Assembly (NCBI GenBank): GCA_020072645.1
Contig: JAIQGK010000001.1
Span: forward strand, 124,001 to 188,000
Length of the DNA: 64,000 bases
DNA from: Terriglobia bacterium
GTDB taxonomy: Bacteria > Acidobacteriota > Terriglobia > Terriglobales > Acidobacteriaceae
Direction: 5' to 3'
Shown here in pieces: positions 36,034 through 61,807 of this stretch. The notes under the pieces were generated by a model that saw only the letters and a program-made list of their open reading frames with translations, was not told the origin of the DNA and did not search any database. Position 1 is the stretch's first letter, and each line of letters starts with the position of its first letter. Made by a program: the position numbers and the translations under genes.

Positions 36034-36109
36034 GGCCAGGTAGCTCAGTTGGTAGAGCGCAGCCCTGAAAAGGCTGGCGTCGGCGGTTCGATTCCGTCCC
36101 TGGCCACCA
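36034..36109 (+). tRNA. tRNA-Phe (GAA)
   Basis: The acceptor stem GGCCAGG pairs with CCTGGCC. The D-arm GCTCAGTTGGTAGAGC, the anticodon stem CAGCC/GGCTG around CTGAAAA (anticodon GAA) and the T-arm GGTTCGATTCC are all present. The CCA tail is encoded (36107-36109). The tyrosine integrase gene begins 176 bp downstream, so the 3' half is the probable ICE attachment site. Confidence 0.97.
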
Positions 36110-36285: not shown

Positions 36286-37506
36286 ATGCTCCACGTTTAC
36301 ACTCGCCATCTGGTCAACTGCGCACATTCGGGTGATGCTCACTGGCGGCGCTGTCACTGTCCCAAATGGATTCGCGGCGTTCTCCTCAACGGCACCAAGA
36401 TCCGCCGTTCGACGCAGTCCGGCAACTGGGAGGCGGCAGAGAAACTGGCCCGTGAACTTGAGACCGAGATCGATCCGGAACGAGAAAAGATTGAAGCACG
36501 CCGCGAGTTCACGCTGCGCGAAGTCGTTGAAACATTTCTGGGCGACCAGAAGGCTCGTGGCTTGGGCAAAGAGACGCAGAAAAAATATCGCGGCTTCCTC
36601 GAACGCCAGTTTCTGGCCTGGGCCGATTCTCGAAGAATAAAATTTCTGGCCAAGGTCAACTCCGCGGAATTGACTAAGTTCCGTACCAGTTGGACCAACG
36701 GCGAGACCACCACCCATCGCAAGCATGAAATGCTGGCATCATTCTTCAGGTTTTGCCAGCGGAACGAACTCATCGGAAAAAATCCCATGGACGCACTGAA
36801 GAAGCCCAAGACCCCGGACGTGGTTCCCACAGACTATTTTCGTCGCGACGAGATCGAGAAGATCGTTGCAGCGACCATCAAGTACGAATTCGGCGGAGGG
36901 AATGATTGCCAGTTTCGTGGACTGCGACTGCGCGCGATGTCACTCTTAATGCGATGGGGCGGATTGTCAATCCTGGACGCAACTAAATTGGAGCGAGAGC
37001 ACCTTTCCAAGGATGACCAGGGAGACGATCAGATATTCCTGTATCGCGCCAAAACCGGCGTTCCGGTGTCGGTCGTCATTCCACCTGATGTCGCTGATCT
37101 CTTGCGGTCTGTGCCCAACGACAATCCACGCTACTTCTTCTGGTCCGGCAATGGCGATCCCAGGAGCGCGAGAAAAGCCTTTCAGCGTTCGTTCTGGAAA
37201 TTGTTCAGGCTCGCCAACATTCGCCGGGAGGATGGATCGCCAAAACGGTGCCATCCCCACATGTTCCGGGACACCTTTGCCGTGGAACTCCTGCTGGCCG
37301 GCAACCCGATCGATCAGGTATCGCTGCTGATGGGGCATTCGTCCGTGAAAATCACTGAGCGGCACTACGCTCCATTCTGCAAGGCACGCCAGCAACAACT
37401 CACGGCTGCGGTGAAGCGGAGCTGGCGAATACGCGAGCCCCGAGCAGGATCCACTAAGCAATCGGAAGCAGGTCCGATGAGCCCGCCCACGACGCTGATC
37501 CAGTAG
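36286..37506 (+). CDS. Tyrosine recombinase / ICE integrase
   Basis: The 406-aa protein has a Cys/His cluster near 12-25 (CAHSGDAHWRRCHC) that may bind zinc, a SAM-like core-binding domain (about 75-170), and a catalytic domain with R223, K256, H325, R328, H351 and the nucleophile Y361 (HMFRDTFAVELLLAG, LLMGHSSVKITERHYAPF). It should excise and insert the element at tRNA-Phe. GAAGGAAG precedes the ATG. The excisionase-like gene lies opposite, just after it. Confidence 0.93.
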   Translation: MLHVYTRHLVNCAHSGDAHWRRCHCPKWIRGVLLNGTKIRRSTQSGNWEAAEKLARELETEIDPEREKIEARREFTLREVVETFLGDQKARGLGKETQKKYRGFLERQFLAWADSRRIKFLAKVNSAELTKFRTSWTNGETTTHRKHEMLASFFRFCQRNELIGKNPMDALKKPKTPDVVPTDYFRRDEIEKIVAATIKYEFGGGNDCQFRGLRLRAMSLLMRWGGLSILDATKLEREHLSKDDQGDDQIFLYRAKTGVPVSVVIPPDVADLLRSVPNDNPRYFFWSGNGDPRSARKAFQRSFWKLFRLANIRREDGSPKRCHPHMFRDTFAVELLLAGNPIDQVSLLMGHSSVKITERHYAPFCKARQQQLTAAVKRSWRIREPRAGSTKQSEAGPMSPPTTLIQ

Positions 37507-37852: not shown

Positions 37853-39332
<1,480 letters not shown>

Positions 39333-39336
<4 letters not shown>

Positions 39337-40256
39337 GAGTGCATTTGATTTTTATTATTTATCTAACCACGGGAATTGGCATGGGACAAACGCAGGAAGA
39401 TCAAATCATTCCTACGGTTACTAGTGCGCGCGTTGAAGACGGCGCGGTAACTGTCCTGCACCTTGCGCCCGGCTACACCACCTCGGTCAGACTTCCTGAA
39501 GAAATCAGCTCCGTTGTCATTGGCAATCCAGCAGGCTTCAAGGCCGAGCATTCCGAAGCTGAACCACGACTGGTCTTCTTCAAACCGACGACCAGCCAAC
39601 CGAGTGAAAGCAACGCCCTGATTACGACAAAATCCGGGCAGGAGATCAGCCTGCATCTGGTAAGCGCCGGCAAGGACGCCGCGAAGTCGCGAGTGGATTT
39701 CCTGGTCGAATATCGGCCAGCGCAGAGCGTGCTGATCAGTCCTGACGAGCAAAGCTTTCTCATTGCCGATACACATCCGGTCTCATCAGTAACTCCGGTC
39801 GATCCCCCTGCTCAATCGGACAAACCGGATTCGGTTGCGAAGCAACTTGAGACACAAAAAAGCCTTTCTTCTCCGGCGTGGCAAGGCAAGGAGGTGCGTG
39901 CGGCTTTGGGCGACTCCCTAGAAACCAACCATCAGACGATTCTGAGTTTCTCAATTCTGAACGACTCGAAACGAGTGATCGAATTGCTTCCGCCGCAGCT
40001 TGAATTGACTGGCACAGCACACGGAAAAGGAGGCAAGCGGATCAAAGGCGATCCGGTTGCAGTCTCCGATTATCGGATGACCGCCAGAAGGTTGCAGCCG
40101 GGGCAGCGGGCCGATGGAGTGGTCGTGTTTGAGCGTCCGGCGTTCAAGGAGTCATCCGAAAAACTACAGCTGAAGTTGGCGGAGGCGGAGCAGGTGGATC
40201 GTCCCATCCTGCTGCCCGTTTCATTTACAGCCAATAGTCAGGGAGGTGGGCAATGA
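39333..40256 (+). CDS. VirB9/TrbG-like transfer protein
   Basis: The 307-aa protein starts with a signal peptide and a beta-rich domain (VTVLHLAPGYTTSVRLPEEISSVVIGNPAGFKAE ... RLVFFKPTTSQ ... ALITTKSGQEISLHLVSAG, about 30-120) that matches the N-terminal domain of VirB9/TrbG core-complex proteins. A second beta-domain follows a linker after about 160. The ATG overlaps the transglycosylase stop, and its own stop overlaps virB10. It is one of two VirB9-like genes; the other lies at 54298. Confidence 0.7.
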
Positions 40257-41566
40257 AGACGAGCGATCAAAACGGATTCGGTAGTTCGCAGGTTTTGGAA
40301 GAAGTGCCGCAGCAACTCTCTACGAGTACTCCGCCTCCGAGCTTGAACGGGAAGGAGCCCTTCATACCGGCAAAGGAGAAGCCAAGATCGGTTTTAAAGG
40401 AAAATGGCCGGCTCGTCTTCATAGGAGCGGGTATTGTACTCGTGCTTTTGCTTCTGGCGTTTAATGGCATTTCGCGCCACTCCATACCAGCACAGAAGAA
40501 CTCTTCGACCGCCAAGCAGCAACAGCCAACAAAACCAGACAATTCTGTCCCGGCTACGAGCATGACACCGATACTTGATACAGGGCGCTCGCCAGCACAG
40601 GAGACAGATGGCAGCCTGGTAAACCCGGACCAGATCGGACGCACAGCGCTCAAGCAGCAGAAACCAAGCGCAGCAACGCTCGCCGACGTGAAGCCTTTTG
40701 ATGGCAATCAGTGGCAGCCCGCGCCATATCAGCCAGGAACACAATCAGCCACGACCAGTAGCGACGTTCCTCCTTCGAGTGATGCTACCCAAACGCGGAG
40801 CGAACATGATGCACTAGACAAAACATCCCTGGTCTTCGTGAGAAACAGTGCTTCCCCTCCAGGAAATCAGAAACCGCCAGATGTCACTCCTGCCATTGAT
40901 TGGGGCATTGGTTTGCCACCGGGTACCAGGCTGCGGGCCAGACTCGAATCCGCGGTAAATACGGCAGTTCGAACTCCTGTTGTGGCCGTTATCGAATACA
41001 ACTACGAGCAAAATGGGGAAATTATCATTCCAGCGGGCGCGAAAGCCTTCGGGCACCTGGAATCTGCCGACCATTCTGGCTACATCGGCATCCGCTTTGA
41101 GTCCTTACTTATGCCAGATGGATCCTCGGTATCGCTCGAAGCAGCTGCTACGGATCTTCAGTTGCGGCCACTGCGAGGAAAAGTTGGGGGCAAGCACACT
41201 GGCAAAAACGTGCTCGTACGCTCGTTTGCAGGTGTGGGAGAGATCGCGGCGACCCTAGTTGGGCGAGGCAGTCTTAATCAATCGTTGAGCGAAGGCGACC
41301 TTTTACGTGAAAGAGTTGCGAATAACATTGGGCAAGCGTCCGATCAAACTGTCGCAAACCTGGCCCTGACGGAGCGAATTGTGGTCTCGGTTCCTGCGGA
41401 CACGGAGATTTACGTCATCTTGCAGAAGGCGGCAAAAGAAAATAGTCAAACCTCACGTGTCCAATTGCCATCACAAGCGGCAACTCAGCCCAGCATCGAG
41501 GAATTGCGGCAACTGATGCAGCTTCAACAGGAATTAAACCAGGGAATGACCAAACCACCGGAATGA
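40253..41566 (+). CDS. VirB10/TrbI-like core-complex protein
   Basis: The 437-aa protein has a cytoplasmic N-terminal tail, one membrane helix (about 54-72), a Pro/Gln/Ser-rich periplasmic linker, and a C-terminal TrbI domain (about 225-415) with LPPGTRLRARLESAVNTAVRTPVVAVIEY, IIPAGAKAFGHL and FESLLMPDGSSVSL. This energy-sensing protein spans the inner and outer membranes in type IV secretion. Its ATG overlaps the preceding stop. A cargo islet follows and separates it from the rest of the cluster. Confidence 0.9.
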   Translation: MKTSDQNGFGSSQVLEEVPQQLSTSTPPPSLNGKEPFIPAKEKPRSVLKENGRLVFIGAGIVLVLLLLAFNGISRHSIPAQKNSSTAKQQQPTKPDNSVPATSMTPILDTGRSPAQETDGSLVNPDQIGRTALKQQKPSAATLADVKPFDGNQWQPAPYQPGTQSATTSSDVPPSSDATQTRSEHDALDKTSLVFVRNSASPPGNQKPPDVTPAIDWGIGLPPGTRLRARLESAVNTAVRTPVVAVIEYNYEQNGEIIIPAGAKAFGHLESADHSGYIGIRFESLLMPDGSSVSLEAAATDLQLRPLRGKVGGKHTGKNVLVRSFAGVGEIAATLVGRGSLNQSLSEGDLLRERVANNIGQASDQTVANLALTERIVVSVPADTEIYVILQKAAKENSQTSRVQLPSQAATQPSIEELRQLMQLQQELNQGMTKPPE

Positions 41567-44842: not shown

Positions 44843-47488
44843 ATGCCCGTGACATCACCACTAACCCGGGAACAGCACGAAAAGCGGCTTGATGATCCGG
44901 CGCTGTGCGAACAGCTGTCCATCCGTGATTACTTGGACAACGTACTCGTGCGCACCAACGGGGCGCTGGTTGCGGGCTACGAATTGCGTGGAATCACTTC
45001 CTATTTCGCGAGCGACGAGGAACGGGACCGCGCCAAGGTCATGCTCGGCGCTCTGCTCAAGTCCATTCCTGAGCAGAGCATGAGAGTCCAGGTTCGCTAT
45101 GAGATGGTCGAAGATGTGGGTAACCTGTTTGAGGTTTACACGGCGCAGGACCGTTTTGGAAGCGAAATTGGGCGGACGCTCGATGCTGTGAGGCTCGAGG
45201 CCTGGCAGCAAAAGGCTGAAGCCGGCCACTATCTCCGGCCCGTGCTTCACCTATACCTCATCTGGGACCCGGCGATACACCACCGCGTCACAGGCAAGGC
45301 GACCAGACGCAGCACAAGTTGGAGCCTTTCTGCCAAGGCCTCAATTGAGCGGAGCCGGCGCGAGCACGAGGAACTCTTGGCGGAGTTTGAAAGTCTGCTG
45401 GTTGGCATCGAGACGACGATGCAGGCGGCAGAATTGGGGCCACGCAGACTCAATGAACAGGAGTTATTCCTTGAAGCCAGGCGTGCGCTGAATCCGCTTG
45501 ATTCCGACACACGGCCCTACACTCCAGCCGAGGGCCATCTTGAATACCGCAGTGCCCGCCAGCAGTTAGCCAATGCCAGCATCGTCGATGAAACCGACAC
45601 GTATCTCAACATAAACGGAATTCTGTATTCGTTCGTAAGCCTCAAGGAACTGCCGGATGCGACGTTTCCCGGAATCCTGCGGGAGCTGGTCGCGCTTGAT
45701 TTTCCGATTGTTGTGAATGCGCAGCTAACGATTCCAGATCAGACCAAGGTCCTAAAGGGCTACAAAACGCGACTCAGGAAGATGCAGGCCGCCCAGCGGG
45801 ACACACATGGCGGATTCCGCGTCAATGTCGAAGCACAGGTTGCGGAGTCCCAGCTCTTCAAAGTGCAGCAGGAGATCATTGCCAGCTCGATCAAGACAGT
45901 AAAGCTGAGTCTGGTGATTGCCACCAGGACATCAAAGCCGGCCATCACGCGCGGCGAGTTCGAGGAGGCCGAGCGGCTCATCAGCAACCGGCGCCAGCAG
46001 CTTCTCTATTCGGTTGCCCGAATGAACGGCGCTAAAGCGATTACCGAGACTTTGGCGAAAAGGCGGCTGTTCTTTAGTTCGCTGCCTGGCATGGCGGATG
46101 CCGACAAACGCGAACAGGATATGTTGACGACGAATGCAGCCGACCTGCTCCCAGTGGAAGCCCCATGGCAGGGCACCCCACGGTCGCCACTGTTCCTGCT
46201 CGAAACGCCATATCGGCAGCTCATTCCATTCTCGCCATTTGATCCCGCTCTGAGCGATGCAAACGTTCTGATCATGGCCAAGAGCGGCGGCGGGAAAACC
46301 TTCATGGTGCAGCAACTGCTTTCCATGGCCTCTCGCGCCAATCCTCTGGTATCGATCATCGAACGTGGCGACTCTTACAGGCCGCTGGTGGAATTGATGG
46401 GCGGTCGCATGATCACGATGTCGCTCGACGCCGACCAGACGATCAATCCATGGGACCTGCCACAGGGTGAGCGGCAGCCAAGCAAGGACCAGGTTGCGTT
46501 TCTTAAGAACCTGACGCGCCACATGCTGGGAGAGAACCCAGCGGAGGATACAGAGCTTCTCGACAATTTGATCACCGAAGCAATTTTGCGAACTTACAAG
46601 CGTGCGGCGATCCGGCCATCCAATCCGATTCCAACGTTCACGGATTTGCGCGATGAACTCGCGCAGTGGCGCGACGAAGAGAAAAACCAGCGCGTGATGG
46701 ATGAGGCCCATCTGGCGGCGATCAAGCTGCGCAGCTGGACAGGAGAGAAAGGGATTTACTCCCGCCTGTTCGACCACGCGACCACAATCTCCCTCGACAA
46801 CCCCTGGCTGTTCTTCAATGTTGAGCAACTCGCCGACGATCCGCGCCTTGAGACCGCTATGAGTCTGTTAATTGCTCATTCCACCGCGCAGAGGGCTTCC
46901 GGCAAGACCGGGCAGCCGAGCATCACGGTGCTCGATGAGTGCTGGTTTTTGCTCGATTCGCCTGTGCTGGCGCCTGAAGTAGTCCAGCTGTTCAGAACGG
47001 CCCGGAAGCGTAATGCGAGCGTGTGGGGCATCAGCCAGACAGCGGAGGACTTTGTTGGCTCGGAAGCCAAGCCAAGAGTACATGGCGCCGGAATCGTCAA
47101 GAATTCGAGCACGAAGATCGTGGGCCAGCAACCGGGTGACATGACCGCCTTGAGGGACCACCTGCACCTGAACGAGACCGCACTTCACCAGATCAAGCAC
47201 TTCAGCGCTCCCCGAAAAGGTCGCAGTGCCGATGCTTTGATTGTGATCGGCGAGAAAGCTGATACCACGCACACCATTCGCATGGTGCCTACGCCGCTCG
47301 ACTATTGGATTACGACCACCTACGCGCGAGAACGACTGTACCGGGCCTGGTGGATTTCACAACACAAGAATATGCCGCTCATCGAAGCTTATCGCCAGCT
47401 TGCCAGGAAATTTCCGTTCGGTCTGGCGGATGTCGAACCGCTCCCAGAGGAGCAATCGATGGAAGTGGCAAAGGGAGCACACAAATGA
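44843..47488 (+). CDS. VirB4/TrbE-type ATPase
   Basis: The 881-aa protein powers pilus assembly and substrate transfer. Walker A is MAKSGGGKTFMVQQ (about 478-491) and Walker B is SITVLDECWFLL (about 693-704), with ISQTAEDFVGS after it, typical of VirB4. The N-terminal half is the usual alpha/beta VirB4 region. The ATG at 44843 has GAGGAGC upstream. It overlaps the next gene by 4 bp. Confidence 0.93.
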   Translation: MPVTSPLTREQHEKRLDDPALCEQLSIRDYLDNVLVRTNGALVAGYELRGITSYFASDEERDRAKVMLGALLKSIPEQSMRVQVRYEMVEDVGNLFEVYTAQDRFGSEIGRTLDAVRLEAWQQKAEAGHYLRPVLHLYLIWDPAIHHRVTGKATRRSTSWSLSAKASIERSRREHEELLAEFESLLVGIETTMQAAELGPRRLNEQELFLEARRALNPLDSDTRPYTPAEGHLEYRSARQQLANASIVDETDTYLNINGILYSFVSLKELPDATFPGILRELVALDFPIVVNAQLTIPDQTKVLKGYKTRLRKMQAAQRDTHGGFRVNVEAQVAESQLFKVQQEIIASSIKTVKLSLVIATRTSKPAITRGEFEEAERLISNRRQQLLYSVARMNGAKAITETLAKRRLFFSSLPGMADADKREQDMLTTNAADLLPVEAPWQGTPRSPLFLLETPYRQLIPFSPFDPALSDANVLIMAKSGGGKTFMVQQLLSMASRANPLVSIIERGDSYRPLVELMGGRMITMSLDADQTINPWDLPQGERQPSKDQVAFLKNLTRHMLGENPAEDTELLDNLITEAILRTYKRAAIRPSNPIPTFTDLRDELAQWRDEEKNQRVMDEAHLAAIKLRSWTGEKGIYSRLFDHATTISLDNPWLFFNVEQLADDPRLETAMSLLIAHSTAQRASGKTGQPSITVLDECWFLLDSPVLAPEVVQLFRTARKRNASVWGISQTAEDFVGSEAKPRVHGAGIVKNSSTKIVGQQPGDMTALRDHLHLNETALHQIKHFSAPRKGRSADALIVIGEKADTTHTIRMVPTPLDYWITTTYARERLYRAWWISQHKNMPLIEAYRQLARKFPFGLADVEPLPEEQSMEVAKGAHK

Positions 47489-49098: not shown

Positions 49099-50346
49099 AT
49101 GTTCTATTTCCAGCAATTGCTCCAGCAAGGGCTGAACGGGATCGATCGGACGGCGATGATACCGACCGTGGTCGGCATCGGGTACACGATCTTGTTAATC
49201 GGATTCCTGATCGGACTCTATCAGGCTGCCATGCGGGGCGGCGATGTGCAGTCGTTGGCGATCACCGGGATCAAGTATCTGGTCATCGCCATCATTCTTG
49301 CTAACTGGTCCACCGTTTTTCGCGAGGTCAACGACTCGTTCAATCAGGTGGCGCAATTCATTGATAACAGTTCTGGCGCCGGCGATATGTTCCTGAGCTG
49401 GTTCGATCAGCTGAAACAACAGTTCGCGAACAACGGCGTAAACTCCATCCTGCCGTCGATAACAGCGAGCTTTGCGGCCATCACGACGGCCCTGATGGTC
49501 CTGCTGGCCTACATCATTTACGCAATGATGGTGGTGATCTTCGCTTTCTTCTATGTGCTCTACGGGTGCGTCCTTTATGTGCTGGGGCCTTTGGTGTTGG
49601 CTCTTCTCCCAATGGCCGGAGTTGGTCAACTGGCTAAGAGTTATGCGACGAACCTGATGATCTGGAACGCCTGGGGCATTCTTTACGCAATCTTCGGTTC
49701 CCTTATCACAGCCATCCAATTTAATCGTGTCGACGAGGTGATGAACCAGGGTTTCCTGCAGGGATTCTTCCGGGGATCATCCGACGCCACCGTTCTGGGC
49801 ATGGTCAGCATTTTCTATGCGCTGGCTCTTGGCCTGATTCCATTTATTGCGAAGAAGTTGATTTCCGGGGATGTTGGAGCGACAGCAGGTTCGCTGGTAA
49901 AAGCTGCAGCGACAGCGGCCGGCGCGCTGATCTCGGCGGGCGCTGGCTTCTCAGCCGGCGTTGGAGCGGCATCAGAAGCTGCACCAGCGATGGCCTCTGC
50001 GGGCACCGGCGCATCGGCGGGCGCAGGGACCAGCGCCGCGGCATCCTCTTCTGCACCGCCTCCGCAACCGAGCCTTGCGCAGACGATTCGCGCGGGCGTC
50101 ATGAGTGCGGTGCAAGGGACCGCACCAACAGCTCCGTCGTCAAATGGGGACGGGAGCGCACAGCAAGCCGCAGCGGCTAGTTCAGGCGCTTCCAGTGGAG
50201 GCAGCTCGCCACGCAGGTCCCAGTCTTCCAGCGGATTTCGGCCAGTGGGCGTCACTCAGACAGTGGCGTTCCATGCCGGAAGAATCGCCGGCGGGATCGT
50301 GAGCGGCAACGGCAAGAAAGGCGATGGGGCTCAAGAGAATGCGTGA
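49099..50346 (+). CDS. VirB6/TrbL-like channel protein
   Basis: The 415-aa protein has about six membrane helices between residues 20 and 255 (TVVGIGYTILLIGFLIGLY, YIIYAMMVVIFAFFYVLYG, LYVLGPLVLALLPMAGVG) and a low-complexity Ala/Ser/Gly tail from about 265 that is probably disordered. This is the usual layout of TrbL/VirB6, which forms the inner-membrane pore. Confidence 0.88.
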   Translation: MFYFQQLLQQGLNGIDRTAMIPTVVGIGYTILLIGFLIGLYQAAMRGGDVQSLAITGIKYLVIAIILANWSTVFREVNDSFNQVAQFIDNSSGAGDMFLSWFDQLKQQFANNGVNSILPSITASFAAITTALMVLLAYIIYAMMVVIFAFFYVLYGCVLYVLGPLVLALLPMAGVGQLAKSYATNLMIWNAWGILYAIFGSLITAIQFNRVDEVMNQGFLQGFFRGSSDATVLGMVSIFYALALGLIPFIAKKLISGDVGATAGSLVKAAATAAGALISAGAGFSAGVGAASEAAPAMASAGTGASAGAGTSAAASSSAPPPQPSLAQTIRAGVMSAVQGTAPTAPSSNGDGSAQQAAAASSGASSGGSSPRRSQSSSGFRPVGVTQTVAFHAGRIAGGIVSGNGKKGDGAQENA

Positions 50347-50366: not shown

Positions 50367-50525
50367 ATGCTGCCATGGTATCGCGGTCCGATTTACGAGC
50401 CCAAGGACAGCCGCTTTCGTCCGTGGAATATCAGCACGCTGATTGCATTTTTCATCGGCAGATTGTTCGGCCGTCTGTTTCGAAGCAGGAGAAAAGGTCA
50501 TGTGGTTAAAGAAGACAGATCCTAA
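50367..50525 (+). CDS. Small membrane-associated protein (52 aa)
   Basis: It begins MLPWYRGPIYEPKDSRFRPW, has one short hydrophobic helix (STLIAFFIGRLFG) and a very basic tail (RLFRSRRKGH). GGAAGG lies about 10 bp upstream. It overlaps the VirB8 gene by 26 bp in another frame. Its position in the cluster suggests a minor T4SS component, but no family is recognised. Confidence 0.5.
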   Translation: MLPWYRGPIYEPKDSRFRPWNISTLIAFFIGRLFGRLFRSRRKGHVVKEDRS

Positions 50526-51243
50526 AGAGAAGGAGCAAGCGCCGGAAAAACTTCGCTACAGCCGGTACTACGAACACGACGGCGCATTGCGTGCGTATGC
50601 CAACCGCGCGATGGTGTTGGCGTTCATTTGCGTGCCGACAACCCTATTGGCCGTTGCCATGGCCGCGTATGTCCGTCTACAGCCGCCTACTGTAATTCGG
50701 GTCGATTCGAGTGGCTCCGCAAGCGTCCTCAGTGACAGGCCGGGAGTTGCAAGGCCAGTGCTGTTGTCTCAGGGCGTAAACGCGGAACCCAACGACTTTG
50801 AGAAGAACGCTTATGTGCGGCTTTTCCTGGACCGCTACTTAAGCTTCTCGCCCGACAGCGTGAACCGAAACTGGGCTGACGGTCTGAATATGATGACCAC
50901 CAACTTACGGCGGGCCACCCTGGCCACAATTGAAAAGAACAATGTGGTCGGAAAGATTCAGGACGAGCAGATTACATCGGTTTTTCACCTGCGATCCCTG
51001 GAACCGGCAAAGGATGACCCCCTGAGCTTCACGGTCTTTGGCGTGAAAGAAGTTCATCGCGTCCGCGACCACCAGGAAACCACCGACAAGCTCGTCGGCG
51101 AAATTCATATTCGGCTGATTACCGAGCGGCGCTCAGAGGCAAACCCCAGTGGCTTGCTTATCGCTGAATACGGGGAGCGGCTGATCGAGGGAGAGCGCAA
51201 GGACGCGATCGTCCGCGACACGTCCCTTAGCAGTTCGAATTGA
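50500..51243 (+). CDS. VirB8/TrbF-like protein
   Basis: The 247-aa protein has a cytoplasmic N terminus, one membrane helix (about 40-60, RAMVLAFICVPTTLLAVAMAAYV) and a periplasmic alpha/beta domain (NDFEKNAYVRLFLDRYLSFSPDSVNRNWADGLNMMTTNLRRA), as in VirB8/TrbF. It nucleates assembly of the channel. I chose the ATG at 50500 since AGGAGAAAAGG precedes it. Confidence 0.85.
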   Translation: MWLKKTDPKEKEQAPEKLRYSRYYEHDGALRAYANRAMVLAFICVPTTLLAVAMAAYVRLQPPTVIRVDSSGSASVLSDRPGVARPVLLSQGVNAEPNDFEKNAYVRLFLDRYLSFSPDSVNRNWADGLNMMTTNLRRATLATIEKNNVVGKIQDEQITSVFHLRSLEPAKDDPLSFTVFGVKEVHRVRDHQETTDKLVGEIHIRLITERRSEANPSGLLIAEYGERLIEGERKDAIVRDTSLSSSN

Positions 51244-51251
51244 GGACCATC

Positions 51252-51539
51252 ATGGACGGAACAAAAACCACAAATGACGGCGCGGCCGGAACTCCTGAAA
51301 GGAACGGCCGCCGCAGGCGCTGGGAGATGACCAGTGAGAACGTTCGCTATTTCCTTCCCAAAGCGGGAAATTCGGGGGAGAAGCCGGAACTGGGGCAGGA
51401 GATGGCGAGCGAAGGCGAAGCGTTAGTGCAGGCATTTAAATCCGGCCAGGTGTTCTACACGCTGGTCGCATGGAAGGCGGTGCCGGAGATTAACGGAAAC
51501 GAACCGAAAATTGTGAAACAGGTTTTGTCCCGAAGCTGA
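51252..51539 (+). CDS. Hypothetical small ICE protein
   Basis: The 95-aa protein is charged and has no membrane segment. Residues 20-95 (RRRRWEMTSENVRYFLPKAGNSGEKPELGQEMASEGEALVQAF) may form a small DNA- or protein-binding fold. It lies after VirB8 by 8 bp with a GAGGACC site and before a structured non-coding stretch. Function is unknown. Confidence 0.6.
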   Translation: MDGTKTTNDGAAGTPERNGRRRRWEMTSENVRYFLPKAGNSGEKPELGQEMASEGEALVQAFKSGQVFYTLVAWKAVPEINGNEPKIVKQVLSRS

Positions 51540-51782: not shown

Positions 51783-54230
51783 ATGGAAAAGTATAGCAAC
51801 AAGACGAATAAGTTTTCAATCGAGCAGGTTGTTACGCTTGACATCGATTCAACAGGAAGTGTGACCCAACGGCTCACAAACCTGGAGACGACGCTCGAGA
51901 ACACCCTTCTCAATGCGCTGTATCCCGGAATCAAAGTCGCTGTTGTGAACGTACCGAACGAGCCTCTGGATGCTTACGAGGAATCGCAGGTCGAAAACGC
52001 AATGGCGAACCTCAAGTTCAAAAACACTCCTTACAAATTAGTAGGGGCAAGTGGTTCGTCCAAGGACGGCAAGTTTTACTTCGTGGACAAGGACCACAGC
52101 CAATCGATTGCGGAACGCTTCCAGCATTGGCCGCAGGCAGCCATCGTCTACTTCGGCATCCTGGTCTCCTCCTGCAAGGTGGTAATCGAGGAGCCGGACG
52201 TGTCGGTGCTGGTGGTTGAAGATCACGTATTGGGAACCAATGATTGCCGTGGTTGGATTCGGCGGTCACTGTTTTCAAAACTTCAACTGCCGGGAAACTG
52301 CTTCTACCAGTTCCGGCTGGCATTTGAAAGAACACAAGCGAAGGGATCCTTCAAGGTCATGGAGGATGAGGCGGCGCAGCTGCTCGACGCCGATATTGTT
52401 CTCCCAGAAAGCGCGGTGAAACCAGGCCTGAAGGTGCCAGTCATGATGTATTCGGTTTTCGGCAAGGGCCGCAGGTTCCGTGGGCCGGTAGTGTTGGGGA
52501 TTCGCGAATTCTCGCGCAAGCTTGAATTCGAGTCCAGCTACACCCTCATCGAACACGCGCCTGATGATTCGATCCAGCTTGAGATCCTGCCCGAGGCCCT
52601 CGGTCAGGTGCGCAGGCTGAATGATTCGATCAGCGAAGGCCGGTACACGGAACTGCTTGAGCTCCTGGGTCTTGACGATTCCGAGAAAAGCCAGGACGAG
52701 GAGGTCAGGACTGTGGAAGCGGCGCTGCTGGCCGATACCAGTGGTCATATCGTCCGCTACCCCTACATCAACAATCAACTCAACCGTCTGCTCGCGCGTT
52801 GGGCTTTCAAAGCGGCGACCGGTGGAGGGTTCCGTCTGCCGGCTTATGCTCTTGCCGACGATGGCTATCTGGTCGTTCACGATGGACGGCTGTATGCGGG
52901 GTCCGACTGGATCTCAAAACAGCAAGCCATTGTGGCGCTTGAGTCCAAACGTGGTCTGTGTGTCCGTTATCCCATCCGCATGTGTGAGGACTTGTTGCCG
53001 ATAGAACATATAGGCTCATCAGAACTCGTCATGCAGCTCAATCGCAGTCTGGATGAGCAGGGATGCCGAACGTCGCATGACCTGGCTGGGCAGATTGCCG
53101 CACAGCAGTTGCTTCTGGAAGGCACGTATGTTCTTCATTCAGAAGCAGCCAAGAAAAACGGCGGCGATTTCGATTTTGACTGGATCTGCATCCTGGAAGA
53201 AAGCCGGTTCCCGCGCTTTGTGCGGAAACGGTTTTCGCTGACCAACGAATTCCATCAGCAGAAGATGAAGCTCCGTAAGGCCAAATCTCCCTGGTGGAAC
53301 CTCGAACATGTGGCGATCAAGGCCCGAGGAAACCAGATCGGCATGATTACCGACCTGAAGACCTCGTGTCTGGCTGCCGGCAGGAGCGATCTTGCTTACC
53401 AGCTCGTCACTGAATTGCAGAAGGCGCTCGACAGTCTCAAGCACGAAGTCGAGCCCGATGCCAAGGTCATCGCCGACATACGCCAACAGGTAAATCCGGC
53501 GCCGTGGCTCAAGTACAAGAATGAGTCGCGAATTTCGGGTTTGCCAATTCATCTCGATGTGGACGAGAACGACCGCATCGGAAAACTCTATAACCACGTT
53601 CGCAAGGAGATTGAAGACCTGCTTACGGCCAAGCTGCCCATAGAGGAATTCAAAGGACTGGTCTCGGGAGAAGAGGTGACCCGGCCCATGTTCGATGAAT
53701 GCCGCTATGTCAACAGCGTCTACGCCGCGGTCGTTGGTCGGATCTCCGAGCGGCAGGACAAACTTAAAGCTGATCTCGACAAGGCGCAGGCAGAATGGGA
53801 GGCTGTGCGCAAGGGCTCCGACAAGGAACTGCGGAAGCAAAAGTTGCAGGCGCGCCGCAAGGCCTATTCCGCTCACTACCACGGTGAAGAACGGGCCAAG
53901 CAGGAGATGAAAGCGATCATCTCTTACGTGCGTGTCTGGGCAGCGAGCAAGACCGACAATCGGATGGGATGGTGCCAGGCCTTGAACCGGGTGGTATGCA
54001 ATGGCCAGGGTAGTGGCTCGATCCTCTTCCATGCTTTCCCGCAGGAACTCGTCGCGAAACTTGCAGAGCAGACGGGCGGCAAAACCGTCCGCGTTGTTGT
54101 GCCGGAGGTGTCCGGGATGTCGATTTTCCGCGACTCCGAAGGGCGTAGCTTCCTGGTCGAGAAGATTGAAGGCGGAGAAAAACAGACCTTCCTGTTTCAG
54201 TACAAGGACGGCCTGTTCTTCTTCGGATGA
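51783..54230 (+). CDS. Putative two-barrel RNA-polymerase-like protein (ICE-encoded)
   Basis: The 815-aa protein lacks a signal peptide or membrane helix. The sequence shows FRLPAYALADDGYLVVHDG (350-368), a KRGLCVRYPIRM block (389-400), KKNGGDFDFDWICIL (457-471; acidic triad D462, D464, D466), and later GNQIGMITDLKTSCL and ALDSLKHEVEPDA (549-560). In order and spacing these recall the second double-psi barrel of QDE-1/YonO-type polymerases, where DbDGD binds catalytic magnesium, followed by a helix with a KTG-like lysine. Residues about 670-725 look like a coiled coil. The DFDFD triad differs from DFDGD. If correct, it makes RNA inside an ICE. Without a structure search, other folds cannot be excluded. 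Confidence 0.45.
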   Translation: MEKYSNKTNKFSIEQVVTLDIDSTGSVTQRLTNLETTLENTLLNALYPGIKVAVVNVPNEPLDAYEESQVENAMANLKFKNTPYKLVGASGSSKDGKFYFVDKDHSQSIAERFQHWPQAAIVYFGILVSSCKVVIEEPDVSVLVVEDHVLGTNDCRGWIRRSLFSKLQLPGNCFYQFRLAFERTQAKGSFKVMEDEAAQLLDADIVLPESAVKPGLKVPVMMYSVFGKGRRFRGPVVLGIREFSRKLEFESSYTLIEHAPDDSIQLEILPEALGQVRRLNDSISEGRYTELLELLGLDDSEKSQDEEVRTVEAALLADTSGHIVRYPYINNQLNRLLARWAFKAATGGGFRLPAYALADDGYLVVHDGRLYAGSDWISKQQAIVALESKRGLCVRYPIRMCEDLLPIEHIGSSELVMQLNRSLDEQGCRTSHDLAGQIAAQQLLLEGTYVLHSEAAKKNGGDFDFDWICILEESRFPRFVRKRFSLTNEFHQQKMKLRKAKSPWWNLEHVAIKARGNQIGMITDLKTSCLAAGRSDLAYQLVTELQKALDSLKHEVEPDAKVIADIRQQVNPAPWLKYKNESRISGLPIHLDVDENDRIGKLYNHVRKEIEDLLTAKLPIEEFKGLVSGEEVTRPMFDECRYVNSVYAAVVGRISERQDKLKADLDKAQAEWEAVRKGSDKELRKQKLQARRKAYSAHYHGEERAKQEMKAIISYVRVWAASKTDNRMGWCQALNRVVCNGQGSGSILFHAFPQELVAKLAEQTGGKTVRVVVPEVSGMSIFRDSEGRSFLVEKIEGGEKQTFLFQYKDGLFFFG

Positions 54231-54297: not shown

Positions 54298-55135
54298 ATG
54301 AAGCGCGCACTGATATTTCTGTTGACGATGTATGCAGTCTTCACTGCTGCTGACGAGCTGAAGGTGAGTCAACCGGCCCCCAGGCGAGGTGATCCATGTT
54401 GCGACCGCACTCGACCACCTGACCGTGCTTGAGTTCGGAGAACCCGTCACCATGGCCGCCGCCGGCAGCCCGGCATTCCAGATCGAGCGTCACGAAGACA
54501 AGGTCTTCATCAAGCCCTTGAAGCCTGGCGTCTCGACCGACCTCTTTGTCTGGACCGCTTCACGGCGCTTCGCCTACGAGCTAGAGCCCCCAGGGGAGGT
54601 AAAGAACATGAATTTCGCATTTGACAGCCGCATTCCAACACCTAAACCGGCGCCAGACAGCAGCGCACATCTGGAAGAAATCGCCGACATGATGTTCACG
54701 CGTGCATTTCTTGGAGCCGAGCGCGTGGACTCGACCAGCATCAGGGATGCCAAAGACCGCATCACCGTCCGCATCGAGCATGTATTTCAGTCCCGAAACA
54801 CTCTCTACATTCACTATTCAATTCGCAATCAGTCACCCCGGCCATACCGGGTGACCACACCGGCAATTGCCGAGGCCCTTGCGCCGCAGGCCACCATCTC
54901 GGTCATGTCGTTTCATCACGTCCAACTCGACGATCAAATGCTGCGCAGGCTTGGAGAACTTAGAGAACGTCCTTTGTCGCCAGCGCGGGCGGAGGTCGAA
55001 AAGCAGGACCTGCAACCAGGCGAGGAAACGCAAGGAGTGATCGCCATCCGGGAACAAGTTGTCGCGCCAACCATCTTTCAACTGACTTTTGGTTCACTCG
55101 GTCCTCGAAAAGTGCAAGCCACGATGGTGTTCTAG
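54298..55135 (+). pseudogene. VirB9/TrbG-like gene with a single-base frameshift
   Basis: The ATG at 54298 opens a signal peptide (MKRALIFLLTMYAVFTAADE) that runs to SQPAP, then shifts frame at a run of five Cs (54377-54381). In the +1 frame the protein continues as GEVIHVATALDHLTVLEFGEPV, a textbook VirB9/TrbG domain, to the stop at 55133-55135. One C fewer would join the two parts exactly. The GTG at 54389 could start a truncated form without signal peptide. It may be a real mutation, a sequencing error or slippage. It is the second VirB9-like gene in the element. Confidence 0.75.
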
Positions 55136-55136
55136 C

Positions 55137-55364
55137 ATGTCAGGGCGGTACATCGCGGAAACCGAGATGCGGAGGCTTCTCCGCGACGCTTATGCGCAGG
55201 ATCCTGAAAAGAGCTTCCTCGGACAAATAGGCCGAAATGCATCTGATCCGGCCATGCTGCGGGATGCGAATAACCGCCCACGCATTCATCCCCTGTGGCT
55301 GACGCTTGGTTTGGTCATCCTGTTTGCAATGGTGGTCTTCTTCTATTTCAGTTTTGTCAAATGA
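55137..55364 (+). CDS. Small single-pass membrane protein (75 aa)
   Basis: Most of the protein is cytoplasmic, and a hydrophobic helix closes it (WLTLGLVILFAMVVFFYFSFV). Its ATG follows the VirB9-like stop by one base, and its TGA overlaps the VirD4 start. It is likely a small T4SS-associated protein. No family is recognised. Confidence 0.6.
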   Translation: MSGRYIAETEMRRLLRDAYAQDPEKSFLGQIGRNASDPAMLRDANNRPRIHPLWLTLGLVILFAMVVFFYFSFVK

Positions 55365-57157
55365 TCAATCACAACAGCTACGAGTATGGCCGGCGCGAGT
55401 ATCAACGTACGCACGAAGATAATGCCGCGCTCGCTCTCGTTGTGTTGGCAGTCGTTGTGCTCGGAGTCGGGTTTTATCTTCTCGTTTCGCGCTTTCATAT
55501 CCGCACCTACCAAATCGTCGAGCTGAGCTTCTATCTGATCGCGCTGATTGGAGCCCTGGTCAGCGCAGCCTGGTACCTTAAAACGCGAAAGAGGCGCATC
55601 GAGAACGCCTGGCCCCATCCGGCGGTGTTTGTTCCGATGCTCAAAGATCGCCGCTATGTTGAACGGGCTTTTGATCAGAACGCCATCATTCCCGGCTACG
55701 ACATCTATGTGCGCCCCTGGTATTGGTCGGACGACGCCCGGCGGATGCAAACGGTGGTGGTTGGTCAGTCAGGTTCCGGCAAGACGACTTTGCTTCACAA
55801 CATTGCCAGTCAGGACATTCGCCGGACTTTTAACAGCCGGCACTTGCCAGTAATCATTTTTGACGGGAAGGGCGACCAGGAATTCCTGAATGACCTGCTG
55901 CCGGAGATTGCCGCTGCCGGCCGGCTCCATCAATTGCGCGTCCTTGATCCATTCCGCCCCGACATCTCCGTGCGCTTTAATCCGCTCTATAACAAGGGGG
56001 GCTCAAGCCAGGAACTTGTTAACGCCTTCTTCGATTCCTTTCTGCAGAGGCAGGACTTCTTCAGAGGACACCAGGCGGCGTATTTGAGCGACGTTTGCCG
56101 CGTGCTCGACTACACCGGAAAGATCTACAACATCCCGGATGTTTTGGTCATGGCCAGGGATGAACATGTGCTGAAAGAACAAATTGCCAGGGCCTCGCGC
56201 AGCATAAGCGATCAGTCCAACGTATCTCAGCAGCGGCGCCAGAACTTCGAAATGTCTGCAAAGAACTTGCTGCAATCGCTCGAAGACCGCGAGCGTTTGC
56301 AAAAGATCCAGGGTTTGCTGAACGAGCTTGGGACGTTCACCGAAGACGACCTTTCGGTCATTACCAACGCCTATGACGATCTGCTGACCCTCGACGAGAT
56401 CGTGGATCAGGAACTCATTCTTTTCGTCTCGTTGAACACGAACAAGAACGCCAGAGCGGTCACGGCTCTTGGTCGAATGCTGCTCCAGAATCTTCAACTC
56501 ATGGTAGGTAAACGCTACCTGAACGAGCAGGACAGACGCCGTGAGAACCGCCCGATGGTCAGCGTGATCCTGGATGAATTTGCCCCGTTTGCCTATCCCA
56601 ATTTTGCGCAAATCCTGCAAACTGCACGCGGCAGCAACATCGCCCTGCTGTTTTCGCTGCAATCGATTCCACAGCTGCGGAGCGTCAGCCGCAGCTTTGG
56701 CGATGACGTTTCATCCGCTCCAAACACGATCATGCTCCTGCGAACCCGCGATGAGGAAACCGCCCGATATTTCCTCAACGCTTCGGCCAGAGTGACTGGT
56801 GAAAGACGCACTATGACGGTCGAAAAGAAAGGTGTTCTGGATGAACATTACGAGGAGATTGGATTCGGAAGCATTACCGAAATCGAAAAGACTAGAGCGG
56901 TGGATTTTCAAATCAAGAACCTGCCTGTGGGACAGATGCAGGTCTTAACGACCGATAACCGGTTGGGTACGCTGCACATGCACGTGCATGTGCGTCGGCC
57001 ACAGAGGTGGTTCCTTTCCAGCTTTGAGGCCGTGCTATATCCACGGTTGCAGCAGGTTAACGCAGACACTAACGGCGCAAATCTGAGGTTCAGAAACCCG
57101 GATCTGGCCCGTCGCATGAATCGGATATTCGGCAAGAATAGGGTCGCCTCGGTATGA
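55361..57157 (+). CDS. VirD4/TraD-type coupling ATPase
   Basis: The 598-aa protein has two N-terminal membrane helices (about 24-45 and 55-75), Walker A VVVGQSGSGKTTLLHN (about 131-146) and Walker B VSVILDEFAPFAYPNF (about 401-416), with a RDEETARYFLN sensor region. Coupling proteins bring the relaxosome to the secretion channel. It starts at an ATG overlapping the previous stop. Confidence 0.9.
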   Translation: MINHNSYEYGRREYQRTHEDNAALALVVLAVVVLGVGFYLLVSRFHIRTYQIVELSFYLIALIGALVSAAWYLKTRKRRIENAWPHPAVFVPMLKDRRYVERAFDQNAIIPGYDIYVRPWYWSDDARRMQTVVVGQSGSGKTTLLHNIASQDIRRTFNSRHLPVIIFDGKGDQEFLNDLLPEIAAAGRLHQLRVLDPFRPDISVRFNPLYNKGGSSQELVNAFFDSFLQRQDFFRGHQAAYLSDVCRVLDYTGKIYNIPDVLVMARDEHVLKEQIARASRSISDQSNVSQQRRQNFEMSAKNLLQSLEDRERLQKIQGLLNELGTFTEDDLSVITNAYDDLLTLDEIVDQELILFVSLNTNKNARAVTALGRMLLQNLQLMVGKRYLNEQDRRRENRPMVSVILDEFAPFAYPNFAQILQTARGSNIALLFSLQSIPQLRSVSRSFGDDVSSAPNTIMLLRTRDEETARYFLNASARVTGERRTMTVEKKGVLDEHYEEIGFGSITEIEKTRAVDFQIKNLPVGQMQVLTTDNRLGTLHMHVHVRRPQRWFLSSFEAVLYPRLQQVNADTNGANLRFRNPDLARRMNRIFGKNRVASV

Positions 57158-60731: not shown

Positions 60732-60761
60732 TCACACCCGTCAAGGCAAATCAGAGGAAAT

Positions 60762-60790
60762 TTGACCGAGTCTCGGAACCGGGGTACCAA
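60762..60790 (+). promoter_or_regulatory. ICE primase-operon promoter
   Basis: TTGACC (60762-60767) and TACCAA (60785-60790) are 17 bp apart, 18 bp before the primase ATG. The 23-bp block around the -35 (60754..60776) matches the transfer-operon promoter at 37853..37875 with one mismatch. Confidence 0.55.
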
Positions 60791-60808: not shown

Positions 60809-61807
60809 ATGCAATCCCGACTCTTGGCTTCCGATGAGACCGTAGCTCGATATTTTGAGCTGTTCGTTAACCGCGGAGCCTACACAGTCCAGTCTTCCAC
60901 TCCGGATTCCGGGACTCGCCGCTGTCACTATTACCGGCCGAAAGGCCGGCTTTCTTTGTCCCGAGATACCGTCCGGCGACATCTCGAAGGACAAGTCACC
61001 ATTGGCCTTTATGCCATCAACCCTGCCACTCAGCGTTGCAAGTGGGTCGCGATCGATGCCGATTATCCAGACGCTTTGGAAGACCTGCTGAAGTTGCAAT
61101 GGGAGCTACGGCAGGATGGAGTTGAAGCAGCTTTGGAGAAGTCTCGCCGCGGCGGACATCTCTGGGTCTTTGCAGCCCAGCCGCTGCTCGCCCGTGATTG
61201 CAGGTTATATATTCACAGCCTGGCGCGACGCCTGAAAGTGCCGGTCAAAGGCGCCCGCCGAGACCAGACTTCTGCAGATGCATGCGGCCCCTTGGCTGAC
61301 GGAATCGAGGTTTTCCCCAAACAAGATGAAGTGCATGCCGATGAATTCGGCAACGCGATTCGTGGGCCTCTCGGGATTCACCGGGGCGTAGGCAAGCGGT
61401 TCTGGTTTTACGGCGCCGATTACACGCTGAGCGCGCAGATGTCTTATCTCACTCGTGTAACGCGCATCACCGAGGACGAGATGCGCCAGTTCGTGGCCGG
61501 CATTGAAATACCGCCCGAGCCTGAACCGGCGCGCAAGCAATTCGCGCGGCCACAGACGTTGACCGGGAACAATCGAAAAGAGTTTTTGATCCTGGAACAT
61601 ATAACCGGAAGAAAGCGCAGGATTGGTAGGAATTACTTCACGCGCTGTCCATCCTGTGCCCGACAGGGACGAGATAGGACGGGCGATAACCTGGCCATCT
61701 GTATCGCCGACCCGCGAAAGTACAAATGTTGGGCAGGCTGTGGCAAAGCGGAGATTCGTGCAGCACTTGGCTCGCCAATTCGGTATGGCACCGGGGCAAG
61801 CCGATGA
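60809..61807 (+). CDS. Archaeo-eukaryotic-type (AEP) primase with a C-terminal zinc cluster
   Basis: The 332-aa protein has the AEP motifs: KWVAIDADYPDA with D83 and D85, SRRGGHLWVF (112-121) with H117, and DGIEVFPKQ (164-171) with E167. The N terminus (SRDTVRRHLEGQVTIGLYAI) resembles mobile-element primases of the TOTE/small-primase type. C280, C283, C298, C307 and C311 could bind zinc. It probably primes replication of the transferred strand. The following two genes overlap it in an ATGA chain. Confidence 0.78.
   Translation: MQSRLLASDETVARYFELFVNRGAYTVQSSTPDSGTRRCHYYRPKGRLSLSRDTVRRHLEGQVTIGLYAINPATQRCKWVAIDADYPDALEDLLKLQWELRQDGVEAALEKSRRGGHLWVFAAQPLLARDCRLYIHSLARRLKVPVKGARRDQTSADACGPLADGIEVFPKQDEVHADEFGNAIRGPLGIHRGVGKRFWFYGADYTLSAQMSYLTRVTRITEDEMRQFVAGIEIPPEPEPARKQFARPQTLTGNNRKEFLILEHITGRKRRIGRNYFTRCPSCARQGRDRTGDNLAICIADPRKYKCWAGCGKAEIRAALGSPIRYGTGASR

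Follow-up and report, generated by a model that had tools for sequence, protein, structure and literature searches.

What is an RNA polymerase-like gene doing in the middle of a conjugation cluster? The question is raised by a stretch of 64,000 nucleotides from a Terriglobia bacterium (Acidobacteriota, Terriglobales, Acidobacteriaceae; GenBank assembly GCA_020072645.1, contig JAIQGK010000001.1, positions 124,001 to 188,000, forward strand), which we call the window. Among its genes for a conjugative type IV secretion system (T4SS) lies an open reading frame (ORF) encoding 815 residues, whose product had been read in an original prediction, made from the letters alone, as a divergent single-chain member of the two-barrel RNA polymerases. 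We find that one lineage of acidobacterial conjugative T4SS clusters carries this gene as a constant component, and that its product is almost certainly a single-chain two-barrel RNA polymerase.

The gene and its conserved residues

The protein was compared with its homologues in alignment A3, which sets the window protein beside 15 homologues at 24-98% identity (16 rows, two of them incomplete), and in alignment A6, whose 16 rows run from Acidobacteria through cyanobacterial plasmids; A4 is the cyanobacterial set. The parts of the gene discussed below are the following.

51783..54230, + strand: gene of the predicted single-chain two-barrel RNA polymerase, 815 aa, ATG start
52044..52064, + strand: GASGSSK, residues 88-94, N-terminal motif, placed by profile alignments on the SSSAGQxR region of a YonO-type protein
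52341..52343, + strand: K187 (AKG), first invariant lysine of the putative beta-like barrel, invariant in A6
52419..52421, + strand: K213, second invariant lysine of the putative beta-like barrel, invariant in A6
52965..52979, + strand: RYPIR, residues 395-399, aligned on RSP of YonO and QDE-1
53166..53180, + strand: DFDFD, residues 462-466, aligned on the DFDGD / DNDGD / DYDGD metal motif
53328..53351, + strand: GNQIGMIT, residues 516-523, conserved in the alignments, C-terminal to the metal motif
53424..53450, + strand: ALDSLKHEV, residues 548-556, (A/V)D..K segment conserved in the alignments

The motifs on which the original prediction had been built (DFDFD at 462-466 after a basic/RYP block, then GNQIGM and ALDSLKHEV) are all found at these residues of the 815-aa ORF. 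Residues D462, D464, D466, R395, Y396, P397, R399, I519, G520, Q546, and A548 are invariant in all 16 rows of A3, and K187 and K213 (K195 and K218 of the Pseudanabaena protein) are invariant together with the three aspartates in 16 of 16 rows of A6. The ratio of nonsynonymous to synonymous substitution rates (dN/dS) is 0.031 against one and 0.036 against the other of the two closest intact copies. The ORF is a real gene under strong purifying selection. A D.D.D string taken alone is weak evidence, as such strings occur by chance elsewhere in 5 of the 29 proteins compared; here DFDFD is more than chance because the triad and its neighboring residues are invariant in A3 and dN/dS is low. Two-barrel polymerases as a rule draw two basic residues from their beta-like barrel, according to PMC7824862, and we infer that K187 and K213 are the putative catalytic lysines.

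Homologues of the protein

How can the protein be identified when it matches no known family directly? Searches of Pfam, PHROGs, and NCBIfam with the window protein alone gave nothing usable, and neither did a PDB sequence search with the window protein alone or with A2. The identification follows from a chain of homologues, which leads through cyanobacterial proteins with DFDGD to the Pfam RdRP family and to YonO of phage SPbeta, and from the structure of a viral homologue. The first link is to the cyanobacterial plasmid proteins. Pseudanabaena proteins carry DFDGD at the exact position of DFDFD in the window protein, and the surrounding motifs are common to both. When the profile of 10 acidobacterial proteins was compared with that of 13 cyanobacterial plasmid proteins, they aligned over 674 columns (probability 100, E 2.7e-40). 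A profile built without the acidobacterial rows and searched against the whole 6.4-Mb genome at E<=1 recovered only the window gene and its paralogue, with a best E of 2.6e-29.

The second link is to Pfam RdRP (PF05183), which matches four of the five Pseudanabaena proteins (E 5.9e-5, 7.3e-5, 8.8e-5, and 0.0042; the fifth is absent at E<=1) and, weakly, two of five acidobacterial proteins (E 0.022 and 0.24), the matches lying around the metal motif or C-terminal to it. The third is to YonO. The pooled family of 28 sequences aligned with six YonO-type phage proteins over 458 columns (probability 97.2, P 4.4e-11, score 102.3). With the four YonO-type proteins that are not fragments the score was 91.0 over 484 columns, whereas 60 column-shuffled controls reached at most 22.3. 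This match takes in the N-terminal motif and continues beyond the metal motif, and in the alignment with the four proteins DFDFD lands on DNDGD. A YonO-like protein of Bacillus phage BUCT082 carries DFDYD.

Structural models

The model of the window protein itself is unusable, with a predicted local distance difference test (pLDDT) value of 35, because the alignment behind it is too thin: its eight partners are either 97-98% or 22-27% identical. The four best Foldseek rows of this model are double-psi-barrel proteins (E 0.14-0.27), and we give them no weight. A better model, though still one of low confidence (mean pLDDT 48), was obtained for a viral homologue, L055; in it residues ~81-210 reach block means of 56-90. 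The only Foldseek matches of this model below 0.001 are QDE-1 (6e-4) and the RNA polymerase gp96 of phage P23-45 (8.8e-4; 167 columns, root-mean-square deviation [rmsd] 6.4). The next rows, at 0.019 or above, are formate dehydrogenases, p97/VCP, aspartate decarboxylase, and isolated double-psi beta-barrel domains; we take the first three to contain double-psi barrels as well. From 0.14 upward unrelated proteins are intermixed in the list. In a VIA-align comparison the five best rows are all polymerases: P74 gp62 (8.7), the RNA polymerase of the crAss-like phage phi14:2 (8.5), maize RDR2 (8.5), P32 gp64 (8.4), and Arabidopsis RDR2 (7.9). Four of these rows superpose 156-170 residues at 3.6-4.4 angstroms, and the crAss row 386 residues at 8.3; ATPase barrels come next (Z 7.6, 89 residues). 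The model thus predicts a beta-like double-psi barrel fold in the viral homologue, at residues ~81-210. In the structural comparison that the original prediction had proposed, the homologue model matches QDE-1; the model of the window protein itself has no significant match (best E 0.14).

Several observations weigh against identifying the protein as a polymerase. The strict DbDGD motif is a mark of the RdRP family, and the window protein does not have it: the glycine is replaced by Phe or Tyr (DFDFD, DYDFD, or DFDYD) in the ten listed acidobacterial members, whereas it is retained in the metal motif of 13 of 13 cyanobacterial proteins. Pfam RdRP has no match at all in the window protein or its genome, and its cut-off is reached by no tested member of the family (22.4 bits for the best, against 23.8). 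When the acidobacterial set alone is compared with YonO, the probability is 8.8 and only a short N-terminal stretch aligns, with scores of 36.0 (six YonO-type proteins) and 34.2 (four) against a null maximum of 25.3. In both profile searches of the PDB the polymerase rows are weak and stand below an unrelated top row. With A6 a designed scaffold comes first among five rows (E 0.23), followed by three QDE-1 rows and the tape-measure polymerase of P23-45 (E 0.28-0.56), all aligned at the metal motif, with the DFDFD region on DYDGD of QDE-1; with A4 the ribosome recycling factor comes first (0.018) and RPC1 of RNA polymerase III second, at the motif (0.98). The C termini show no conservation in A3. 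As for the models, the barrel that bears the triad has a pLDDT below 50 in both, the superposition of L055 on QDE-1 is loose (template modeling score 0.25, rmsd 21.6 over 853 columns), and the Z values of the polymerases in VIA-align are modest, barely above those of rows that match the barrel only. Still, the profiles, the invariant catalytic residues, and the structural matches of the homologue model all support the original reading of a divergent single-chain two-barrel polymerase.

Distribution of the family

The same 6.4-Mb genome holds a second copy of the polymerase on another contig, 63-68% identical to the first. Matches were found in 6 of 41 genomes (its own and 40 relatives), one of them a 28-residue contig end, and in 6 of the 297 genomes, its own included, that sample the phylum evenly. 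Only five plasmid records match the window protein, all of them from Pseudanabaena. A Pseudanabaena protein used as query leads further, to 81 plasmid records of which 33 are typed as conjugative; the 30 matches listed are cyanobacterial. Relatives also occur on viral contigs, where they were found with cyanobacterial profiles; the viral collection gave no match with A2 or the Pseudanabaena protein as query, and a phage collection none with the window protein or the Pseudanabaena protein. Three Pseudanabaena proteins scanned against PHROGs hit one family with no assigned function (best E 1.8e-53). On five IMG/VR contigs (L043-L047) each polymerase homologue is followed by an ORF of ~1,730-1,820 residues, which continues up to the point where the stretch breaks off.

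Position in the conjugation cluster

The genes around the polymerase in the window include these.

40253..41566, + strand: VirB10/TrbI-like gene, Pfam match over cut-off
44846..47488, + strand: VirB4-like ATPase (TraG P-loop), Pfam match over cut-off
49099..50346, + strand: VirB6/TrbL-like gene, Pfam match of 20.6 bits, below cut-off
50500..51243, + strand: VirB8-like T4SS gene, Pfam match in orthologues
51252..51539, + strand: orf94, small conserved protein in the gap between virB8 and the polymerase, present in 10 of 10 loci and two more
54389..55135, + strand: VirB9/TrbG-like (CagX) gene, Pfam match of 33.1 bits, cut-off 34.2
55361..57157, + strand: VirD4-like coupling protein, Pfam match over cut-off

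Some of these names need a word of explanation. The Pfam CagX/VirB9-like family is found twice in the window, both times below its cut-off. Pfam VirB8 matches six of the seven orthologues tested, two of them over the cut-off, and the window copy is the one without a match. The names virB5a, virB5b, and virB2-like were given by position and by eye, and virB5a and virB5b have no Pfam match.

Is the position of the polymerase constant? Besides the window there are 13 loci, and ten of them, from nine genomes, were compared by tblastn with the window genes. The order virB4, virB5a, virB5b, virB6, virB8, orf94, polymerase, virB9b, virD4 is kept in nine of the ten, including L014, although there the matches to virB4 and to the polymerase are each broken up. 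The exception is L075, whose polymerase match ends at residue 357; the rest of the run is absent from the visible stretch. Rows obtained with a query named virB3, translated in the wrong frame with X for its stops, were set aside. Two partial loci show the same arrangement as far as they go: L010 with virB8, orf94, polymerase, virB9b, and virD4, and L006 with virB8, orf94, and a 28-residue polymerase fragment up to the contig end. The placement between virB8 and trbG that the original prediction had described is therefore confirmed and constant, with orf94 also lying in between. In samples of 297 and 294 genomes, strong VirB8 matches (E <1e-40) are confined to the six genomes with a polymerase match and are present in all of them; in six further sampled genomes the VirB8 matches reach just 1.6e-4 to 8.9e-4.

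The polymerase has also diverged along with its neighbors. Across nine loci, the window included and L014 and L075 left out, mean pairwise identity is 54.8% for the polymerase, 54.8% for VirD4, 54.4% for VirB5b, 51.2% for VirB8, 46.4% for VirB6, 40.5% for VirB9, and 63.5% for VirB4. Pearson r between the distances of the polymerase and those of each of six T4SS proteins is 0.88-0.97 (0.95-0.97 for VirB4, VirD4, VirB8, and VirB9); between VirB4 and VirD4 distances it is 0.93. These values should be interpreted with caution, since Spearman coefficients are lower (0.69-0.94) and the control set consists of element genes alone, with none from outside.

Two side observations concern the neighbors of the polymerase. 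The orf94 product has no Pfam match and is a candidate partner of the polymerase. In the VirB9-like gene (54321-55135) the part encoding the signal peptide is in another frame than the body, while a related copy (L009) is in one frame; the break is either a real lesion or an assembly error.

The promoter-like repeat and the rest of the element

If the element carries its own polymerase, which polymerase reads its genes? A repeat of 23 nucleotides (nt) bears on this, together with two genes that lie to either side of the T4SS run.

36286..37506, + strand: tyrosine integrase, adjoining tRNA-Phe (36034-36109), Pfam match over cut-off
37853..37875, + strand: promoter-like element (23-nt repeat), located before the AAA gene with which the T4SS run starts
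60754..60776, + strand: promoter-like element (23-nt repeat), second copy, located before the primase gene
60809..61807, + strand: archaeo-eukaryotic-type primase (AEP-TOTE), Pfam E 1.9e-24, over cut-off

The repeat precedes AAA, primase, small virB2-like (ahead of virB4), and other genes in several clusters (the window, L089, L092, L093, L072-L075, L097, and L099). With at most one mismatch, AATTTGACCGARTTYC has five sites in the genome against one for the reversed control pattern, and all five AATTTGACCGARTTYC sites lie in or beside elements of this family: two in the window, one ~1.7 kb ahead of the AAA gene that belongs to the second copy, one on contig 4 before a primase homologue, and one on contig 35 between an integrase and an AAA homologue. 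The layout is TTGACC, 17 nt, and YANNNT, with A as the second base of the hexamer in 16 of the 16 sites counted and in 22 of all 24; of the two exceptions, one falls within a virB5 gene, on the opposite strand, and the other lies outside the element. The 24 sites are those with at most three mismatches. Three were left out beforehand as chance-like (window 47853, window 1561, and L074 15608), 21 entered the column count, and a further five were left out afterwards, namely two sites that nearly duplicate the one at the primase gene (L013 and L014) and three weak sites (window, L012, and L013), so that 16 were counted; these exclusions were made by judgement. The first 16 columns served to find the sites and carry no weight as proof, and we give no probability for the layout because the sites are related by descent. 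We read the repeat as a putative sigma70-like promoter for the host polymerase plus an extra element-specific block. The idea that it is a private promoter of the element's polymerase was dropped in view of the sigma70 layout (TTGACC-17-YANNNT). Two ORFs behind the repeat in L089 and L093, taken by eye for integrases, were also rejected as such: the window integrase does not match them.

Primase matches are found in loci L012-L014 and on contig 4 of the genome (L097) too. A second copy of the tRNA end was not found in the window and the next 17 kb by exact words of at least 14 bases. The element seems to continue downstream of the window, where a stretch of the contig (L083, bases 185000-204900) holds a methylase-like and a helicase-like ORF, both named by eye; the gene for the Pseudanabaena polymerase is likewise followed by an annotated methyltransferase and helicase (L015, L018, and L019). 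On two cyanobacterial plasmids and in four YonO-type phages (L029, L030, L037, L039, L040, and L041) the polymerase homologue has a gene for an HU/IHF-type or other DNA-binding protein behind it or at a distance of one gene; no such gene was recognized among the window genes scanned with Pfam.

Possible roles of the polymerase

What, then, could the enzyme make, and when? By homology, a beta-like double-psi barrel would supply K187 and K213 and a beta'-like barrel the triad D462/D464/D466. The DFDYD of the BUCT082 protein suggests that the enzyme is active in spite of Phe in the place of Gly, and its relation to YonO that its template is probably DNA. We propose that the polymerase uses the element's own DNA as template and that this RNA synthesis is linked to transfer: it would travel with the single strand, or await it, and transcribe it on entry or establishment in the recipient. 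Taken as a whole (a polymerase, a T4SS component, and RNA synthesis linked to transfer), this is the best explanation that we have, held tentatively and at slightly less than an even balance. The coupling of RNA synthesis to DNA transfer or establishment, taken by itself, is possible but somewhat doubtful. A more specific version is rather unlikely: a polymerase at or through the transfer channel would transcribe the entering strand with no need of the new host's RNA polymerase, as a conjugative counterpart of virion RNA polymerases. The proposed link to transfer has a parallel in P23-45, whose authors hypothesize (PMC10770324) that the phage genome is transcribed during entry by a polymerase associated with the DNA-delivery channel. 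Two negative results count against a role in transfer. The hidden Markov model for MOBP relaxases (PF03432) has no match in the genome, nor has the one for Replic_Relax. Around the homologues in 14 cyanobacterial plasmid stretches there is no relative of the window T4SS proteins, a weak test as 3 of the 14 lack a match to the window polymerase too. Coupling to transfer may thus not be a trait of the whole family.

The alternative that survives best is a role like that of YonO, in which the polymerase would transcribe the element's own units. YonO is a processive DNA-dependent RNA polymerase without which 37 of 148 induced SPbeta genes are silent, as PMC5467207 reports, and the pooled family aligns with it over 458 columns. 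However, the units in question (AAA, primase, and the small genes ahead of virB4) carry the host sigma70 promoter layout, and the polymerase gene sits in the middle of the T4SS run, which makes this role unlikely, although a promoter specific to the polymerase may exist elsewhere. The polymerase could instead supply the RNA primers from which complementary strands are made on transferred or rolling-circle single strands. In conjugation DNA does arrive single stranded and RNA polymerases can prime replication, but the element already encodes a primase, to which the three close loci L012-L014 also have a match, and we regard this role as improbable. The shared sigma70-like promoter and the primase together make ordinary transcription of those units, or priming, less likely.

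Two further alternatives are very improbable. In the first, the enzyme would copy RNA, as QDE-1 and plant RDRs can, for defense or regulation. QDE-1 and RDR2 are indeed among the structural neighbors of the homologue model and Pfam RdRP matches four Pseudanabaena members, but the constant linkage to the T4SS suggests no role for RNA templates and YonO strongly prefers DNA over RNA templates (PMC5467207). In the second, just as improbable, the change from Gly to Phe or Tyr would mean that catalysis is lost and that the polymerase fold has a structural or DNA-binding function in the transfer machine. The change does run through all ten listed acidobacterial members, against Gly in the 13 cyanobacterial ones; yet the three aspartates and two lysines are invariant, selection is strong, and the BUCT082 protein has the same kind of replacement. 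That DFDFD is a chance string in an unrelated protein, as the missing direct family match might suggest, can be dismissed as it is contradicted by the alignments, the profiles, the genome search, the YonO match, and the structural matches.

Relation to known polymerases

The reading that we prefer, RNA synthesis linked to transfer, gains perspective from the known relatives of the enzyme. The cyanobacterial plasmid proteins, annotated as "hypothetical protein," are ~22-23% identical to the window protein over up to 88% of the query and have the same order of catalytic motifs, but carry DFDGD or DTDGD, and no relative of the window T4SS proteins was found near them in the 14 stretches. YonO is likewise a single chain of similar size (839 aa) with the same motif order in the 458-column alignment; it differs in being phage borne, in having an HU-type DNA-binding gene behind it, and in its weak direct similarity to the acidobacterial set. 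QDE-1 and the RDRs (PF05183) are eukaryotic RNA-silencing enzymes; they are among the top structural neighbors of the homologue model and match the family at the level of the motif, short of the PF05183 cut-off. The tail-tape-fused virion RNA polymerase gp96 of P23-45, a single-chain two-barrel enzyme and the second Foldseek match of the homologue, is the closest functional parallel that we found, being tied genetically to a DNA-delivery channel (PMC10770324). Unlike the window polymerase, which is a separate gene in the T4SS run, gp96 is fused to a phage tail protein.

The enzyme family itself is already known. Earlier papers describe NCgl1702-like RNA polymerases as relatives of the RDRs that occur in mobile elements and have no flap domain (PMC7824862), recognize phage and plasmid two-barrel polymerases as one clade (PMC10770324), and report YonO-like proteins in Firmicutes and cyanobacteria, the single-chain two-barrel polymerases being thought to have diverged very early from cellular RNA polymerases (PMC5467207). 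What is new here is the polymerase as a fixed part of an acidobacterial T4SS cluster: we found no paper on a polymerase inside such a cluster in the literature searched, which covered few subscription papers and neither Iyer and Aravind 2012 nor Ruprich-Robert and Thuriaux 2010.

A polymerase that is inherited as a fixed and co-diverging part of a DNA-transfer machine would be a new setting for an enzyme of this kind. Its sequence shows that another residue can stand in for the glycine of the catalytic motif across a whole lineage under selection. The system gives a direct experimental route to the question of how transcription of a mobile element gets started in a foreign cell, and it raises another: why would the transfer of DNA between cells need an RNA-making enzyme of its own?

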